DNA of 41,617 nucleotides, taken from the IMG/VR virus record IMGVR_UViG_3300045997_000241, positions 1 to 41,617 of that record; one strand, 5' to 3'. The stretch comes from a virus. The notes beneath the pieces were generated by a model, which worked only from the letters and a program-made list of their open reading frames with translations, was not told where the DNA came from and searched no databases. The first letter of the stretch is position 1. Every line of letters begins with the position of its first letter. A program made the position numbers and the translations under genes. Positions 28,146 through 38,111 of this stretch are shown in pieces.

Positions 28146-29663
28146 CTAAAAATAAGTTGCTGGCTCGTCAATCTCCGGTTCAAGGACGCTGTCAGGTTCT
28201 GAGAACTGAGGAATGCTCCAGATATTTACGTTTTTACCCCGTATTTTCATTAGCTCGGCCTCGCCACCAATATCCTTTAAAATAGCCGTTATTTTGTTGG
28301 ATGTAAAGGCCTTGAATTTTTTCCTATCAAGAAAGGCAAGAAAGTCCGATAGCTTGAAATACGTTCGCCCTTGACTGGTCCACGGCTTTCCAATAAGAAG
28401 TTCGTCCACCTTTTTTGCCTTTACAAGTGAGATGCAGTATGTCTCAAGCAATTCCTTTAATTGACCTGATGGTGATGAATCCTCCGTGGCCTCAATAATC
28501 GAAACCTTGTCCAAAAGGGCCTTTATAATGTTATGCCAAACCCCAGGTTTTACGATGGGCGTAAGAACGTTCAATGAGTCAAGGCAAATTTTTTGAAAAC
28601 GCATTTGGTTTTGAAGGTCATTTGTCTCAAGTTCAAGGCGACCACCGCCATCCACGTCAACAAACCAAATAGGTGGGTTGGTGTCATACTTTGTAAGGGC
28701 GGTAAGCACTGGCATGTCAAGAAGGGCACCGACGCCAAATTTACGCGTGCGACAAAGCCCTGAATTGCAGTGCGGCTTTAACGGGGCCTTGCTGCATGAG
28801 TAGTCATATTCTTTTTTCTTCAGACTTTTTACGACACCCTCCACCTCATTGGACAAGAGCGGGGGGTCAAAAAACTTTATGTTGAAGTCGTTCAGCAATT
28901 GCGCCCAGCTGTCGGGGGATTGTTTCTTTAAATACACGCCCAAATTATATAGGCCGTCATTCCTGGTACCCGCCACAAATCCCCTGGTAACAAGATATTG
29001 AAGGCACGGAGGTCCATCAGACAGGTCGGGAAGCAGGGCCACGGTGAAGGCCTCGAACTCCGCCATTGTTTTGCGACTTGCCAGGGCGCGCTCGACGAAC
29101 TGCTTAATGGATAGGCCCTCATTATTTTTATCCAACGCAAACCTAACGGTATTCTCAGCATCAAAATAAGGCATGTTTATCCATTGCCCAATGTCGCCGC
29201 GCTCCGATAACACCTCGTTTTGCCTTGGATAAATCTCGGAGCCGGCAAAGCCAAGAAGCGCGGCGTAGTGACTTAGTTTTTGACGAACAAGGCTCGCAGG
29301 CGTGGCCTCACTAAGAAATGTGTAGAGGTGCAAACCACCGGACTTTGTCTTGCATGGAATGAGCGGCAGCTCGTTATCCTCAATCAATTTTAGTGTTGGA
29401 ACGTAGTCAAGGTCATAAACGTCAACGTCAATGGCCCCAAAAAAGCACATTGAGTCGTCACGAATCGGAACTATGCCAATGCCGGTTCGCCCGGCAAGAT
29501 GGTCCTCCCATAATTGCTCAGTTACCGGCGCATGCTTGGTAATGGCCTCACCAAGAATTTTATTTTTATCTGTTTTGGATGACCTAACAAGCGAATAGGT
29601 GCCGTAGGCTCGGTCCAATCCCTTGAATAGCGTCATCATGTCAGCTACGAATAAATTACCCAC
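28146..29663 (-). CDS. Archaeo-eukaryotic-type primase (AEP/TOTE-like primase with PriCT)
   Basis: A 505-residue protein. Catalytic acids lie in FFGAIDVDVYD (D79, D81), the substrate motif is KSGGLHLYTF (about 107-116), and the third AEP motif region is DIGQWINMPYFD (about 157-168). The C-terminal part has a PriCT-like segment, TRNDGLYNLGVYLKKQ, and a cysteine cluster around residues 290-304 (CSKAPLKPHCNSGLC). It would make primers for the phage polymerase, possibly with polymerase activity itself. The start is GTG at 29663 with AAAAGGGG upstream. The C-terminal 180 residues are unassigned. Confidence 0.82.
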   Translation of the reverse strand: MGNLFVADMMTLFKGLDRAYGTYSLVRSSKTDKNKILGEAITKHAPVTEQLWEDHLAGRTGIGIVPIRDDSMCFFGAIDVDVYDLDYVPTLKLIEDNELPLIPCKTKSGGLHLYTFLSEATPASLVRQKLSHYAALLGFAGSEIYPRQNEVLSERGDIGQWINMPYFDAENTVRFALDKNNEGLSIKQFVERALASRKTMAEFEAFTVALLPDLSDGPPCLQYLVTRGFVAGTRNDGLYNLGVYLKKQSPDSWAQLLNDFNIKFFDPPLLSNEVEGVVKSLKKKEYDYSCSKAPLKPHCNSGLCRTRKFGVGALLDMPVLTALTKYDTNPPIWFVDVDGGGRLELETNDLQNQMRFQKICLDSLNVLTPIVKPGVWHNIIKALLDKVSIIEATEDSSPSGQLKELLETYCISLVKAKKVDELLIGKPWTSQGRTYFKLSDFLAFLDRKKFKAFTSNKITAILKDIGGEAELMKIRGKNVNIWSIPQFSEPDSVLEPEIDEPATYF

Positions 29664-29738: not shown

Positions 29739-30581
29739 TTAGAAGTGGTTGTCGTCGGTGACAGGAGGAGCGGCGTCCTCGAACGTGTCAGACGGCGGGG
29801 TTACTTTCACAAGGCCTTTATTCACCTCGGCGCAAAAAGCACGCCCGGCAAGATATAGCTCAGGTTTCGTGACTGGAATTGGGTCCGAAATTTTGTAATT
29901 TTGGAATGTGTTTCCGTTGCGCTCTTCCATTTCTGCTGAAATATTGTACACGTGGCTGTACGACGCCGGCGTGGCCATTGTCTTATTCGGCCCAATAGGT
30001 AACTTCAGGTCCGTCATTCTGCTTATCCATTTTCTTGATTTTTTAAGCTGCGTCCGTGTCATTGAAATAACCACGCGGGACGTGGAGCCGTCCTTATTTA
30101 TCAGCAGGCAGTAGTGGTAGGCGGTTTGAACAAGCACGTTTCCATTTGGGAGAATATCCATATTCTTGTCATTGCGCTTCGTTGTTGCCATCAACTCGTC
30201 GGTCGCGTGATGCGCCACAAAACCACCACCCTTTGAACGCTCGACCCACTCAACCCACGCCCGATTAAAGGCGCATGGCAGCACATTGATGCTTTCGTAA
30301 ATGTCGCCTGTGACGGTGTTGTATAGCAAGCCCTCACGCGCCCCGTGGACGGCAGTGGCCCCGCGAAGTTGCGGTGAAAGTGCTTGAAGAAGTGTGATAA
30401 ACGGCACTGCCATGTCCGCAGCCGTCACGTTTTCAAACCCACCACCAACATCCTGGGCCAACACCTCTGCAATGGCTGTTGTTTCAGTGGTGGCCAAAGT
30501 TTTTGTAGTCGATACGGCCACGGCCGTTTGCGACTGTTTTGCTCCTTGTGCGGCGTTTGCCGCGTCATTCTTTTTTGCCAT
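29739..30581 (-). CDS. Probable single-stranded-DNA-binding protein with acidic tail
   Basis: A 280-residue protein. Residues 1-45 are Ala/Thr/Gln-rich and disordered. The central about 200 residues contain the conserved-looking ALSPQLRGATAVHGAREGLL, YNTVTGDIYESINVLPCAF and QLKKSRKWISRMTDLKL. The C-terminus is TDDNHF after DTFEDAAPP, resembling the acidic, phenylalanine-ended tail of SSB proteins such as T7 gp2.5. Its place beside the primase, with its own terminator for higher expression, agrees. The fold is not proven by sequence alone. Confidence 0.6.
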   Translation of the reverse strand: MAKKNDAANAAQGAKQSQTAVAVSTTKTLATTETTAIAEVLAQDVGGGFENVTAADMAVPFITLLQALSPQLRGATAVHGAREGLLYNTVTGDIYESINVLPCAFNRAWVEWVERSKGGGFVAHHATDELMATTKRNDKNMDILPNGNVLVQTAYHYCLLINKDGSTSRVVISMTRTQLKKSRKWISRMTDLKLPIGPNKTMATPASYSHVYNISAEMEERNGNTFQNYKISDPIPVTKPELYLAGRAFCAEVNKGLVKVTPPSDTFEDAAPPVTDDNHF

Positions 30582-30591
30582 TCCTATCTCC

Positions 30592-31182
30592 TTATTTTAA
30601 GATGATTGTTTCACGGTACTTGTATACAGAGAAAAGGTCCTGCGGAAAACTTGTGTTTTCAACAATTTGCTCCCTAACAAGCGCCTTTAATGTTTGCGGA
30701 TGCACCGATTTTTTCTCGGTAAATTTCAAGCGTAGCTTCTTTAAGAGCGTGGTTAACTCCTTTGAGTGGGCAAGGTCGTCTTTTTTTAACTCGACGTCAA
30801 TTTTGTTTTTAATCACGGTATCGAGCTTGTTCTTTGCCAGCCAGGCAAAGCAGTCTGCCTTTTTTTCCTCCGTGATCGCCGCGTTATAGTCAGTTTTTAT
30901 GGCCACACCGGTGCCGTCACTTAGACTCACCTTGCTTAGGCCAAGCTCATCAAATAGCGTCGGGACCAAGTCGGAGCCGATATATTTGATTCTATCTGAT
31001 ATCTTTTTTGCCTCCTCGTTCAACTTTTCAAGGGCCTTTTCTGCCTCAAGTTTTTCACTGATTAGCTTTGAAATAATCCCTAATTTTTGATGAACAAGGT
31101 CGCCATCAAGCTGGCCACCAACGTCCTCGGCCAACAAGGAACTAAGCGAATTATCATCACATTGTTTGCTTGTTTTTTTCAC
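30592..31182 (-). CDS. Replication-cluster protein with coiled coil, unknown function
   Basis: A 196-residue protein, start GTG at 31182 with GAAAGGG upstream, first gene behind promoter P-L5 (31202-31233). Residues about 35-70 form a coiled coil (SEKLEAEKALEKLNEEAKKI). Residues about 75-130 have the pattern LFDELGLSKVSLSDGTGVAI, then ITEEKKADCFAWLAKNKLDT and VIKNKI, seen in phage proteins found next to SSB and recombination genes. The specific activity is unknown. Confidence 0.65.
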   Translation of the reverse strand: MKKTSKQCDDNSLSSLLAEDVGGQLDGDLVHQKLGIISKLISEKLEAEKALEKLNEEAKKISDRIKYIGSDLVPTLFDELGLSKVSLSDGTGVAIKTDYNAAITEEKKADCFAWLAKNKLDTVIKNKIDVELKKDDLAHSKELTTLLKKLRLKFTEKKSVHPQTLKALVREQIVENTSFPQDLFSVYKYRETIILK

Positions 31183-34273: not shown

Positions 34274-34714
34274 TTAAATAACCTGTTTCCAAAATTGCTC
34301 GTATTTTCCTGCAAGCAGCCACAATTTTTTGCCGCTGCCGGCGTATTCATTCAAAAAAATAACCCGCTCGCACGAGGTGTTGAGAAGCAGTCGCGTGCAA
34401 ATCGCGCATGGCTCGCATGTGCAATACAGCGTGTTTATTTCAAGCGTGTTCTTGCATTGGAGGAGCGCATTTTGCTCCGCGTGCACGGCAAAGCAGTTGT
34501 CAACAAGGCCAAGGCCACTGCAAAAAAATTCCCTGGCACATTTGCCGACCTCACTGCAGTTAAAGATGCTTTTGGGACTTCCGTTGTAACCGGTTGAAAG
34601 AATGTGGTTATTGGCGTCAACAAGCACCGCCCCAACGCTTCGCCTTCTACATGTACTTCGCGCGGCCACGGCCACGGCAATTCCTAAAAAATACTGATCA
34701 ATGCTTGGTCTCAT
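34274..34714 (-). CDS. Deoxycytidylate (dCMP) deaminase
   Basis: A 146-residue zinc enzyme converting dCMP to dUMP. Zinc and catalytic residues are visible in CFAVHAEQNALLQC (H78, E80) and CTCEPCAICTRLL (C103, C106). RSTCRRRSVGAVLVDANNHI and STGYNGSPKS are typical of dCMP deaminases. The frame extends upstream to 34777, but that part overlaps the promoter, so the ATG at 34714 (AAAGAAAG upstream) is chosen. It has its own early promoter and follows the TS-family gene. It would drain dCMP and supply dUMP for thymidylate. Confidence 0.92.
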   Translation of the reverse strand: MRPSIDQYFLGIAVAVAARSTCRRRSVGAVLVDANNHILSTGYNGSPKSIFNCSEVGKCAREFFCSGLGLVDNCFAVHAEQNALLQCKNTLEINTLYCTCEPCAICTRLLLNTSCERVIFLNEYAGSGKKLWLLAGKYEQFWKQVI

Positions 34715-34745
34715 GTTAATTCTTTCTTTTAATCCTGCATAGTTA

Positions 34746-34782: not shown

Positions 34783-35628
34783 TCAACAAAAAAGTTCATA
34801 TAAAAACAAACCGTCATCAACCCGGCAGATACCTTTGTCGTAGGCCAGGACCGTGGGCGTTGTGCCGTGTGACAAGCCAATCAAATAGGCCTGAAGAGAG
34901 TCATATTTTAAAAATTGATTAAGGCACAGCGGGGCGTAATCCGCCTCGCGGTCATCACCAAGCAAGTTGTAGACGTCTGACTTATCATAACCAAACGACT
35001 CTTTGTGGCAATATAGGTGTGAACTTCCGGCCGTGAGGTATAGCTTGCCAAGCCGTACATTGATGTCTAAAACGTCACGAAGAAGCAAGGCAACCCCCGC
35101 AGAGACCATTGAAAAATTAAATAGGTCGTATGGAAGGCCAAGCCATGCGTCGGATGATCGCATCGTGGCCACGCAGTTAAGCTGGCCGTCACGACAAAGC
35201 CATTGAAGACTTAGCGTGCATGGAACGTCCTTTGTGTCGTATGGCCGTTCTCGCCAAATTGTGAGCACGGCCTGGCGCGTGTGCAGGTCTTTTTTAAAGG
35301 CCTGAATAATATATGGAAGCTGCTCGATTATTTTGGGACCGTAGGCGCCAAAAAAGAAGTGACCGTCATCTGAGAAATTTGCGATTTTATTGTTGCAGTA
35401 GCCAATATCAGCCACGCGATTGCTTCCTGACAGTATCCAGCCGGCCTCCCCCATGGCAAACTTTCGACTTAGCTTGCGGCCAACCAAGGTAACAAGCGGG
35501 AAGGTCATGTCAATCATGATGGTTTTTGCAAGTTGCTCAATAATATCGTGGCCACGACAGGTGCAGCTATGCCCGTTTACCAAAATGTCCTGAATATGAT
35601 TTACGTATGTCATGTTGGTCTCAAGCAT
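34783..35628 (-). CDS. Thymidylate-synthase-family enzyme, predicted dCMP hydroxymethylase or methylase
   Basis: A 281-residue enzyme of the TS fold. The catalytic cysteine is in VPCTLSLQW (C137). The phosphate-binding RSSD (157-160) and the HLY pair (H204, Y206) match TS. The residue that in TS is the invariant asparagine of the PFN motif (E. coli N177) is aspartate here (LGLPYDLF, D168). That change is the known mark of dCMP- rather than dUMP-specific members such as T4 gp42. The histidine following the catalytic cysteine in E. coli TS is Thr here. It overlaps the kinase gene by eight bases with GGAGG upstream. The product could be 5-hydroxymethyl- or 5-methyl-dCMP. Confidence 0.82.
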   Translation of the reverse strand: MLETNMTYVNHIQDILVNGHSCTCRGHDIIEQLAKTIMIDMTFPLVTLVGRKLSRKFAMGEAGWILSGSNRVADIGYCNNKIANFSDDGHFFFGAYGPKIIEQLPYIIQAFKKDLHTRQAVLTIWRERPYDTKDVPCTLSLQWLCRDGQLNCVATMRSSDAWLGLPYDLFNFSMVSAGVALLLRDVLDINVRLGKLYLTAGSSHLYCHKESFGYDKSDVYNLLGDDREADYAPLCLNQFLKYDSLQAYLIGLSHGTTPTVLAYDKGICRVDDGLFLYELFC

Positions 35629-36646
35629 TTAAGAACCTCCGTAATTTCTCAATAAATAGTTTCTTGTATGTTGGAAAACGATTTGCCGCCTGCGGGTGTG
35701 GGAGCGGTGTATAGACAAGGTCGAAATTTTCAAGAAGCGTTACCTCGGCCTTTTCGCCAAAGACGCCTATTTTCACCTTCTCACCGTTGCGGCCTGCGTG
35801 CCAATTAAGCCATTTGCGCAGCTCGATCTTGCCAAGTCGGTGATTCATATTTATAAAATAGAGCCGATGCTCATCAATTCCCAGTTCGTCAAGCACGTGG
35901 CAAAGGTGCAGCGAGCAGGCTGCGTTTCTAAAGAAGGGCCAGGCCGGGCGATGCGTGCCCCATTTAAGATTTGGTGTGTCTCCAAGCAACAGGGTGGCGG
36001 CTTGGAAGTTACCGGCGGTTGATACGCTTGGCTCAGGATTACCCTGCAACGTATGTGAAAAATGCACGTAATCACACACCTGTTTTGCAAACGAAGGCAT
36101 GTCGTGGCCCATGGTTTGATAGTCGTATATAAACATGTCAAATCTTTTAGCAATGCCAGCGCGAATAAAGTGGCGATGGTATCCGTGATACTCATCAAGG
36201 CTTGAGGTCCCATAAATAAGTCGCTGGTACTCATCGCGAACTTCGCACATTTTATCGACGTCATGATACAATTCGCGACCACTTTCAACAAGTGACTTAA
36301 ACTGGACCCGGTAGGCAACCTCGTTTCCGGGGACGCACAAAACATACACCCCGCCAAAGCGAATCAGCATGCGGTCCAGCATGCGACCATACTCCGGCCA
36401 CTTGGGACCGCCACGATAGACCTTTGCGTAAATCATCTCAGTAAGCCACCACCGATCAAGTATGCAGGGCGTCCCAGTCTTTTCAACCTTTGACAGGGCG
36501 TGCAAGAGGGCCGCGGTGTGGTAGACAGGCATTTTGTTCTTGTGACGATATGTCATGTGGATGTATGTTGCCCCACATTGACGTTGAATTTCCCTGGCCA
36601 GGGTGGTTTTTCCGGCCCCATCCGGGCCCTCAAGCACTATTATCAT
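35621..36646 (-). CDS. Nucleoside monophosphate kinase fused to a uracil-DNA-glycosylase-like domain
   Basis: A 341-residue two-domain protein. Residues 1-195 are a thymidylate-kinase-type P-loop enzyme: LEGPDGAGKTT (5-15), ILDRWWLTEMIYAKVYRG (62-79), and a lid-like basic region. Residues about 215-341 follow the UDG superfamily layout: ATLLLGDTPNLKWG (217-230), an FINMN motif (264-268), KIGVFGEKAEVTLL (292-305), and PLPHPQAANRFPTYKKLFIE (314-333), with the HP pair of the glycosylase loop. GGAGG precedes the ATG. It sits directly before the dCMP-type TS gene, so the kinase probably acts on the modified nucleotide. The glycosylase-like domain's activity is unknown. Confidence 0.7.
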   Translation of the reverse strand: MIIVLEGPDGAGKTTLAREIQRQCGATYIHMTYRHKNKMPVYHTAALLHALSKVEKTGTPCILDRWWLTEMIYAKVYRGGPKWPEYGRMLDRMLIRFGGVYVLCVPGNEVAYRVQFKSLVESGRELYHDVDKMCEVRDEYQRLIYGTSSLDEYHGYHRHFIRAGIAKRFDMFIYDYQTMGHDMPSFAKQVCDYVHFSHTLQGNPEPSVSTAGNFQAATLLLGDTPNLKWGTHRPAWPFFRNAACSLHLCHVLDELGIDEHRLYFINMNHRLGKIELRKWLNWHAGRNGEKVKIGVFGEKAEVTLLENFDLVYTPLPHPQAANRFPTYKKLFIEKLRRFLNA

Positions 36647-36661
36647 ATGCCTCCTGTTACA

Positions 36662-37510
36662 TTATTTTGCGGTGATTATCCAAAGATTGTTTCTTGCACG
36701 ATCTGGGCAAAGCACGGCGAAGATGCAGGACAATGCGTCGTCATCGAAATATTGACCCAACGCCTCACAGGTTATTTGATGCACCTCAGCCATCGTTTTA
36801 AAATTGCTTATGTTCATGAATGTGCCGTATCTCCTTGTCCATCGCAGACCAGCCGTGTTTATCGCGTCAGACAATTCAGCGATCGTGTATTCATGGATGT
36901 GATTTTTCGCCGCACTCCCATTGAACACCGGCGTCGATAGAAAAATCCTTCCTTTTGGGGCAAGCAACTCTTTGAATATTTTAAGAAGTTTAAGGCCGTC
37001 GGCGACGCTCATGTGCTCAATAACCTCAAAGCAGGTGATTACGTCGTACCCACATTTTGAAAGTTCATTGGGGCGATCTACCACGTTGAACTTATCAAAA
37101 ATTTTTACGTCGATGTTTTGCGACGTGGGCTTTTTTGTGATCAAATTAAGGTCAACCCCGGTGTAACTTGCCGGCCTGTATGCCCCAAGGGCCGAGGTCA
37201 AAATTTTATACAGCGGCAACTCTTGCCCGCAACCCACGTCGAGGACCCGGCAACCTTTTTCGATGTGCCGCCTTACAAACGACCACCTGAAAAAATGCGC
37301 GGAATAATCACGATGAAGTGTGGCCCCATGGCCAGTACTTTTAAGCTGCGTCGTATTGAATAATCGACCATCGACCTTGACATGCCTGCCATTGTTTTCA
37401 TCGGCCTCTGGCGTTTCAACTGGCGTTTCGATCTTAAGATTGCTTGGTTGGCTGGCATTGGTCAATCGTTCTTTCCGCTTTTTTGGCAGCGGGGCCACGA
37501 ATCTATCCAT
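36662..37510 (-). CDS. SAM-dependent class I methyltransferase
   Basis: A 282-residue protein. The SAM-binding motif is CRVLDVGCGQELPLYKIL (residues 87-104), the acidic motif II is YTGVDLNL (D120), and YDVITCFEVIEHMSVADGLK carries the post-motif helix. The N-terminal 60 residues are basic and low-complexity. The start ATG at 37510 has GAGGAG; an upstream in-frame start at 37543 has none. It belongs to the Ubi/COQ-type small-molecule or RNA/base methylase group rather than a recognisable DNA-MTase class (no DPPY or PC motif). The substrate is unknown; the gene lies within the modified-nucleotide cluster. Confidence 0.8.
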   Translation of the reverse strand: MDRFVAPLPKKRKERLTNASQPSNLKIETPVETPEADENNGRHVKVDGRLFNTTQLKSTGHGATLHRDYSAHFFRWSFVRRHIEKGCRVLDVGCGQELPLYKILTSALGAYRPASYTGVDLNLITKKPTSQNIDVKIFDKFNVVDRPNELSKCGYDVITCFEVIEHMSVADGLKLLKIFKELLAPKGRIFLSTPVFNGSAAKNHIHEYTIAELSDAINTAGLRWTRRYGTFMNISNFKTMAEVHQITCEALGQYFDDDALSCIFAVLCPDRARNNLWIITAK

Positions 37511-38111
37511 CAATTTTCTCCTCTTCAAGAGATACAAGGTCATGCAGGTCAGGGGCTATCCAGCCCTCGGGTTTTACCACGTCATAGCAGGAGCCACGCT
37601 TTGATTGGCTGGCCCGTTCAACCGGCACCTTCCGCATGTTTGCCGCATGCACCCTGGCCCATGCCGTTGCGAACACCTTTGCGAAGCCGAACACTTTTAC
37701 CGTGCCAAACGCAAAATAAATGAGGTCAACCAGGGCGTCAAGGATTCCGGCCTCGTCACCCGCCTCAATTGCGTAGGCGAGCTCATCAACCTCCTCCTGA
37801 ATGCAAGTTAGACGGAAATTTGTAATATCAGTGGATATTATCAGGCCTTTCCCGTATGGAATTTTAAATTTGTCGATAAATTTATTAAGATCACCCTGAT
37901 AATTTACCGCATTTCTTCCTGAGTGACTTTTCAGATGACGAAGCACGTTTAAGATTGGCTCGGGAACAGTTTTGAAAAGCTTGTTGTCCTCGTCAACAAT
38001 AAAGAGTTCAAGCACAAGACCGTCAATCTGCTTCACAAGATTGTCGATATTTTGGGCCTTTCCTGCCAACTCATTTTCGAGTTGCTTTTTTGTCTTTTGT
38101 TTTTTTATCAT
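37503..38111 (-). CDS. MazG-like all-alpha nucleotide pyrophosphohydrolase
   Basis: A 202-residue protein. The MazG/dUTPase-type metal-binding helices are visible: IQEEVDELAYAIEAGDEAGI (E106, E107, E110) followed by LDALVDLIYFAFGTVK (D125, D129), and later AWARVHAANMRKV. The N-terminal 45 residues are coiled coil. In T4-like biology such all-alpha NTP-PPases (dCTPase/dUTPase) clear dCTP so that modified cytosine is used. That role would suit this cluster, but the nucleotide specificity cannot be read from sequence. It overlaps the methyltransferase by eight bases and its upstream gene by four. Confidence 0.78.
   Translation of the reverse strand: MIKKQKTKKQLENELAGKAQNIDNLVKQIDGLVLELFIVDEDNKLFKTVPEPILNVLRHLKSHSGRNAVNYQGDLNKFIDKFKIPYGKGLIISTDITNFRLTCIQEEVDELAYAIEAGDEAGILDALVDLIYFAFGTVKVFGFAKVFATAWARVHAANMRKVPVERASQSKRGSCYDVVKPEGWIAPDLHDLVSLEEEKIDG

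Follow-up and report, generated by a model that had tools for sequence, protein, structure and literature searches.

The window, the whole 41,617-nt stretch of viral DNA analysed here, carries on its minus strand an open reading frame (35621–36646) that starts with ATG, encodes 341 amino acids without an internal stop and shares 8 nt at its 3′ end with the beginning of the TS-family gene that lies downstream. Its product joins a kinase domain to a compact domain of the uracil-DNA glycosylase (UDG) superfamily, and it lies among genes of nucleotide metabolism. The features of the locus, as predicted from sequence and structural models, are as follows.

34274–34720, minus strand: dCMP deaminase (PF00383, 3e-21; phrog_174, 2e-41).
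34783–35628, minus strand: TS-family dCMP 5-hydroxymethylase with GLPYD and Asp at TS position 177 (PF00303, 2.9e-17).
35624–36022, minus strand: compact C-terminal UDG-superfamily domain, residues 209–341 of the fusion (AlphaFold2, Foldseek, VIA-align, family profile and PF03167).
35696–35698, minus strand: His317, motif II (HPQ), assigned by conservation among relatives.
35849–35851, minus strand: Asn266, base recognition, matching Asn80 of T. thermophilus UDG (alignment to 1ui0; conservation).
35933–35935, minus strand: Phe238, base stacking, matching Phe54 of T. thermophilus UDG (alignment to 1ui0; conservation).
35978–35980, minus strand: Asp223, motif I acid, matching Glu41 of T. thermophilus UDG (alignment to 1ui0; conservation).
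36035–36646, minus strand: N-terminal TMK-fold P-loop kinase domain, residues 1–204 of the fusion (phrog_761, AlphaFold2, VIA-align and motifs).
36662–37543, minus strand: SAM methyltransferase (PF13489, 4.3e-15).
37503–38111, minus strand: PRA-PH/MazG-type nucleotide pyrophosphohydrolase, a dCTPase candidate (PF01503, 1.2e-9; phrog_671, 2.6e-22).

Elsewhere on the same strand, the window encodes a primase-like protein (28146–29663; Pfam AEP-TOTE, 9e-10, and phrog_21866, primase) and members of the Pam3 gp34-like and gp33-like families (29739–30581 and 30592–31182), relatives of which occur in 10–16 of the fetched loci.

The N-terminal half matches the thymidylate kinase family phrog_761 (5e-14). 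Within an AlphaFold2 model of the full protein (pLDDT 91.6, pTM 0.91), residues 1–204 align by VIA-align with YorR (3kb2/2axp; Z 16.6), human TMK (Z 15.3) and many other TMKs (Z about 14–15), and both the P-loop, G-x-DG-x-GK, and the DR motif are invariant across 76 relatives. The score against the TIGR00041 dTMP kinase model is 24.3 bits, under the curated score of 83.25 bits. From its sequence we assign this half as a TMK-fold dNMP kinase with a candidate substrate only, and not as a proven dTMP kinase. A PADLOC search gave weak P-loop matches alone for the kinase half and zero matches for the UDG half.

The C-terminal half is more divergent from known families. Taken alone it matches the Pfam UDG model PF03167 at 7.7e-4 to 9.2e-4, and its 20.0 bits fall below the Pfam gathering score of 24.3 bits, so that the window sequence is by itself merely suggestive. 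Relatives exceed that threshold, including the fusion in locus L068 (35.8 bits, 1e-8, the best value) and a stand-alone UDG in locus L053 (34.4 bits); 20 of the 38 members of a profile built from relatives match PF03167 at 0.1 or better. Searched against PDB sequences, this profile returns UDGs for all of its top 27 hits, the best being 1ui0 (5.8e-7). An AlphaFold2 model of the domain alone (pLDDT 89.2, pTM 0.83) gave 34 Foldseek hits in the PDB with E ≤ 0.001, all 34 of them UDG or UdgX structures (best 1ui0, 4.7e-6). VIA-align places it on 4zbx with Z 12.0 over 123 of 133 residues at an rmsd of 2.7, within a range of 10.3–12.0 for the family-4 UDGs and UdgX (1ui0, 4zbx, 1vk2). Foldseek and VIA-align together rule out a fold unrelated to UDG. 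Profile and model evidence together show the C-terminal half to be a genuine UDG-fold domain of compact size, nearest in fold to family-4 UDG/UdgX. The first-pass annotation, made from the letters and translations of the window, had proposed such a kinase–UDG fusion with a C-terminal domain starting at residue 205; the fusion and the domain stand, and the boundary moves to nearer residue 209.

The fusion is not confined to the window. A single-sequence search of viral contigs returned no relatives and alignment queries were needed; an alignment search of IMG/VR then gave 152 relatives, and the top 80 went into the analysis. With the window and named phages included, the set holds 77 complete fused loci, 6 kinase-only loci and 3 truncated by contig ends, and about 43 of the complete loci differ mutually by more than 30%. 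The complete fusion is encoded in Stenotrophomonas phage AXL3 (gp29, annotated as thymidylate kinase), in Pseudoxanthomonas phage PW916 (L002, 2319–3299) and in ctUtU524 (L003, 7971–8900), the gene being absent from the public annotation of the latter two, as well as in Actinomycetia phage DSL-LC01, whose genome is metagenome-assembled (PMC10611076), and in more than 70 metagenomic virus contigs. These homologues, seen in a number of named phages and in dozens of contigs, rule out an assembly artefact or frame-shifted join. Bacterial genomes yielded kinase-half relatives only, among the matches listed. The earlier annotation had placed the architecture in no standard family; among the libraries searched, Pfam, PHROGs, NCBIfam and PADLOC contain no model of it, and we found no published description of a kinase–UDG fusion in the literature.

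The two halves are co-inherited. Distances between kinase halves correlate with those between UDG halves (Mantel r 0.64; the highest of 2,000 permutations gave 0.28). The UDG half of the window protein lies on a long branch, and the kinase and UDG trees place the protein differently, with low support. The halves also exist as neighbouring genes. In L053 (2450–5631), a dCMP-hydroxymethylase-type gene, a stand-alone UDG (PF03167, 2.8e-8), a kinase, ThyX, a MazG-type gene and a dCMP deaminase follow one another with mostly overlapping ends, which supports a shared task for the two halves. The other kinase-only loci showed no UDG, either by PF03167 across the whole record or by the family profile across the fetched locus. 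Kinase-only relatives that carry a dCMP deaminase and, L053 apart, are UDG-less thus indicate that the domain is dispensable for such a cassette.

Conservation within the UDG half separates the fusions into two classes. The motif order first read from the window (LLLGDTPN, NMN, GVFGEKA, PHPQAAN) is real and maps on Glu41, Phe54 and Asn80 of T. thermophilus UDG and on the HP dipeptide, matches that rest on alignments and not on model geometry. In the first class, here called HP, His317-Pro318 is present in 42 of 42 sequences, an acid at position 223 in 38, Phe at 238 in 38 (Trp in 3) and Asn266 in 39, with Asp at the base-reading position in L048 only. This conservation holds at about 28% identity, and the window protein keeps all four residues (D223, F238, N266 and H317), the catalytic Asp, His and Asn that the first-pass annotation had singled out for checking among them. 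The second class, PPPL, comprises 34 sequences (including L026, L028, L031 and L033–L040) in a single clade with support of 0.99–1.0; motif II has changed from HPQ to PPPL, with Pro replacing His in all 34, and the KRF motif that follows is lost. The acid, Phe238 and Asn266 are each kept in 34 of 34, many of these sequences being near-identical and so not independent, and as one clade PPPL counts as one event. Between close pairs, dN/dS of the UDG half is 0.05–0.17 in both classes, which places the domain under purifying selection in HP and PPPL alike.

The neighbourhood of the fusion points to modified cytosine. A TS-family gene adjoins it in 76 of the 77 complete loci, and the closest PDB sequence to the window's TS-family protein is a CMP 5-hydroxymethylase (5.6e-16). 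All 80 readable sequences (two of them second fetches of one contig) have Asp at TS position 177, as does the control T4 gp42, a dCMP hydroxymethylase; the control SPO1 gp29, a dUMP hydroxymethylase, has Asn there. Asp at this position selects dCMP over dUMP, according to two earlier reports (PMC6400193; PMC8670742). Across the 43 HP-class loci, a dCMP deaminase gene is found in 40, a MazG-type pyrophosphohydrolase gene in 34 and a SAM methyltransferase in 29; the methyltransferase occurs in none of the 34 PPPL loci, and no dCMP deaminase was found in the 14 PPPL records searched. We considered and dropped the idea that catalysis by the UDG half and a dCMP deaminase strictly go together, since three His-bearing records are without deaminase and kinase-only records have deaminase without UDG. 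As a separate observation, two hypothetical AXL3 proteins with no Pfam match, gp34 and gp32 (L001, 4766–5413 and 5925–6524), have relatives in 15–17 non-PPPL loci and in no PPPL locus.

Phage AXL3 has been isolated, and of 37 restriction enzymes only two, TasI and Tru1I, cut its DNA, both at A/T-only sites (PMC7504290). Taken with Asp177, these restriction data point indirectly to cytosine as the modified base. The link to base hypermodification drawn in the first-pass annotation, and its placement of the gene beside a SAM methyltransferase and a dCMP-type TS, are upheld. In a metagenome association study, contigs with modified cytosine carry Asp177 TS, PRA-PH and dCMP deaminase domains (PMC8670742). 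By the homology of its parts, the cassette looks like a 5-hydroxymethyl-dCTP pathway, and the phage probably replaces its DNA cytosine with a modified version, the methyltransferase at 36662–37543 being a candidate finisher of the hmC modification. We infer that 5-hydroxymethyl-dCTP is produced by fusion-bearing phages, with hm-dCMP as the substrate of the kinase half.

To the whole protein we assign, with a probability of roughly 0.4, the role of an hm-dCMP kinase joined to a pyrimidine glycosylase of the U type, with U or 5-hmU as its target. Domain homology, the cassette, residue conservation and purifying selection are what we observe; substrates, catalysis and purpose we infer as follows. 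The adjacent dCMP hydroxymethylase would make hydroxymethylated dCMP, the TMK-fold half would phosphorylate it (and perhaps dTMP too) and the PRA-PH/MazG enzyme would clear dCTP. The C-terminal half, a pared-down member of the UDG superfamily in which the acid of motif I, the stacking Phe, the Asn that reads the base and the His of motif II are all in place, would act as a glycosylase on U and/or 5-hydroxymethyl-U. These bases arise when C and hmC are deaminated, and the domain would clear them from phage DNA or from the nucleotide pool. Attached to the hm-dCMP kinase, the glycosylase would sit where nucleotides are made, and synthesis of hm-dCTP would be coupled to removal of its deaminated by-product. 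The base-reading Asn predicts a uracil-type base and not a cytosine-type one. In family-1 UDGs, a Tyr at the position matching residue 226 excludes 5-substituted bases; here this position, close to where motif I ends, is for the most part occupied by Asn, Ala or Gly, so that 5-substituted uracils such as 5-hmU could fit. The more specific proposal, that one polypeptide both charges hm-dCMP and excises U/5-hmU, fusing synthesis with quality control and accepting 5-substituted uracil beyond the reach of host Ung, we consider doubtful. Against a glycosylase role altogether stand the His-less PPPL clade, the deaminase cassettes that are UDG-less, the missing family-4 features and the long branch of the window sequence.

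Several of these same observations lend themselves to the main rival reading, which we regard as a tentative but possible one. In it the UDG half has no catalytic role and serves to read or tether: it would bind DNA, a base or a replication protein and keep the kinase close to the hydroxymethylase or the replisome. The PPPL domain, maintained by selection after loss of His, indicates that the domain can serve a purpose even where standard catalysis is lost, and at 133 aa it is smaller than the approximately 190–205 aa of catalytic UDGs. Phage DNA polymerases, whose UDG-fold domains may plausibly read or tether in this way, offer possible precedents. The N terminus of the SPO1 DNA polymerase (L114, 27242–27841) has a UDG-fold domain (PF03167, 3.9e-23) in which Ser replaces the base-reading Asn (TSIVKY), the UDG half matches residues 37–205 of the phiLo family-A polymerase 9qhs with VIA Z 10.7 (we found no paper on this polymerase in the literature), and there is a match to the SP-15 and Colly_1 polymerases as well. 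What this reading leaves unexplained is the HP class, which retains four active-site residues despite strong divergence, His in 42 of 42 sequences among them, although binding alone would not need them.

Two further catalytic readings appear unlikely. The UDG half might act on modified or unmodified cytosine, as a hypermodification step or to destroy unmodified DNA; the methyltransferase in 29 of 43 HP-class cassettes fits with this, and Brig1 demonstrates that a UDG fold can accept glucosyl-hmC (PMC11078745). We consider it improbable, since a phage that excised its own modified base would be attacking its own DNA, and the base-reading residue, Glu in Brig1, is Asn in 39 of 42 HP and 34 of 34 PPPL sequences and Asp in L048 only; the Asn makes action on modified cytosine less likely than clearance of U/5-hmU. 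It is likewise a slim prospect that the domain edits for the kinase at the level of nucleotides and not of DNA, splitting free dUMP or hm-dUMP at the glycosidic bond. Fusion to a nucleotide kinase, the adjoining dCMP deaminase as a source of dUMP and a crystal structure of UdgX with dUMP (6ajp, among the Foldseek hits) speak for it, but UDGs as a rule work on DNA rather than on free nucleotides, and we found no sequence feature that separates the two modes of action. Finally, a base-swapping or pyrophosphorylase role, raised in the first-pass annotation, is not supported; known pyrophosphorylase-type hypermodification enzymes are AlkA/HhH-like, whereas the fold predicted here is that of UDG.

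The fusion is widespread, under selection and linked to a dCMP hydroxymethylase, and one of the phages that carry it, the isolate AXL3, has restriction-resistant DNA. Public records call the fused protein merely 'thymidylate kinase' or omit the gene. The His-bearing, His-less and split forms of the fusion make it testable whether a phage with modified cytosine needs a glycosylase of its own for the deaminated form of that base or whether the domain is a reader. If the glycosylase reading is true, a phage glycosylase for 5-hmU would handle 5-substituted uracil beyond host Ung. More generally, UDG-fold domains recur on DNA enzymes of base-modified phages.

Among known glycosylases, family-4 UDGs (1ui0, 4zbx, 1vk2) and UdgX share with the UDG half the motif order of acid, Phe, Asn and HP. 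Family-4 enzymes differ in having about 190–205 aa, against 133 aa attached to a kinase here, and in their 4Fe-4S Cys residues, none of which is conserved in the 38-sequence alignment, the N-terminal part with the first two Cys being absent. UdgX has a KRRIH motif with the covalent His109, and the window sequence is without KRRIH. Brig1 is likewise a UDG-superfamily protein tied to hmC phages and has the same closest structure, S. tokodaii UDG, but it is bacterial and anti-phage, excises alpha-glucosyl-hmC and presents a Glu (E147) to the Watson–Crick edge (PMC11078745) where the fusion protein has Asn266. Judged by these residues, the UDG half is outside family 4 (no Fe-S Cys), UdgX (no KRRIH) and Brig1 (no Glu). 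The SPO1 gp31 and phiLo 9qhs polymerases similarly fuse a UDG fold to a DNA-metabolism enzyme of a base-modified phage; here the UDG fold is attached to a dNMP kinase and retains the Asn where the SPO1 polymerase has Ser.

At the level of the pathway, the T4 route to hm-dCTP (gp42, the dNMP kinase gp1, the dCTPase gp56 and the deaminase cd) has the same four activities that are predicted here in one cassette, and Asp177. The present cassette departs from it in that the kinase is TMK-fold with a UDG domain, the pyrophosphatase is of PRA-PH/MazG type and there is an extra methyltransferase, with no glucosyltransferase seen. The MetaGPA cytosine-modification cassettes have in common with ours the Asp177 TS, PRA-PH and dCMP deaminase domains; they end in a carbamoyltransferase, and the portions of that report at hand name no kinase–UDG protein (PMC8670742). 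The parts and the pathway are of known kinds, and it is their combination, its breadth and its three forms (His-bearing, His-less and split) that are new.
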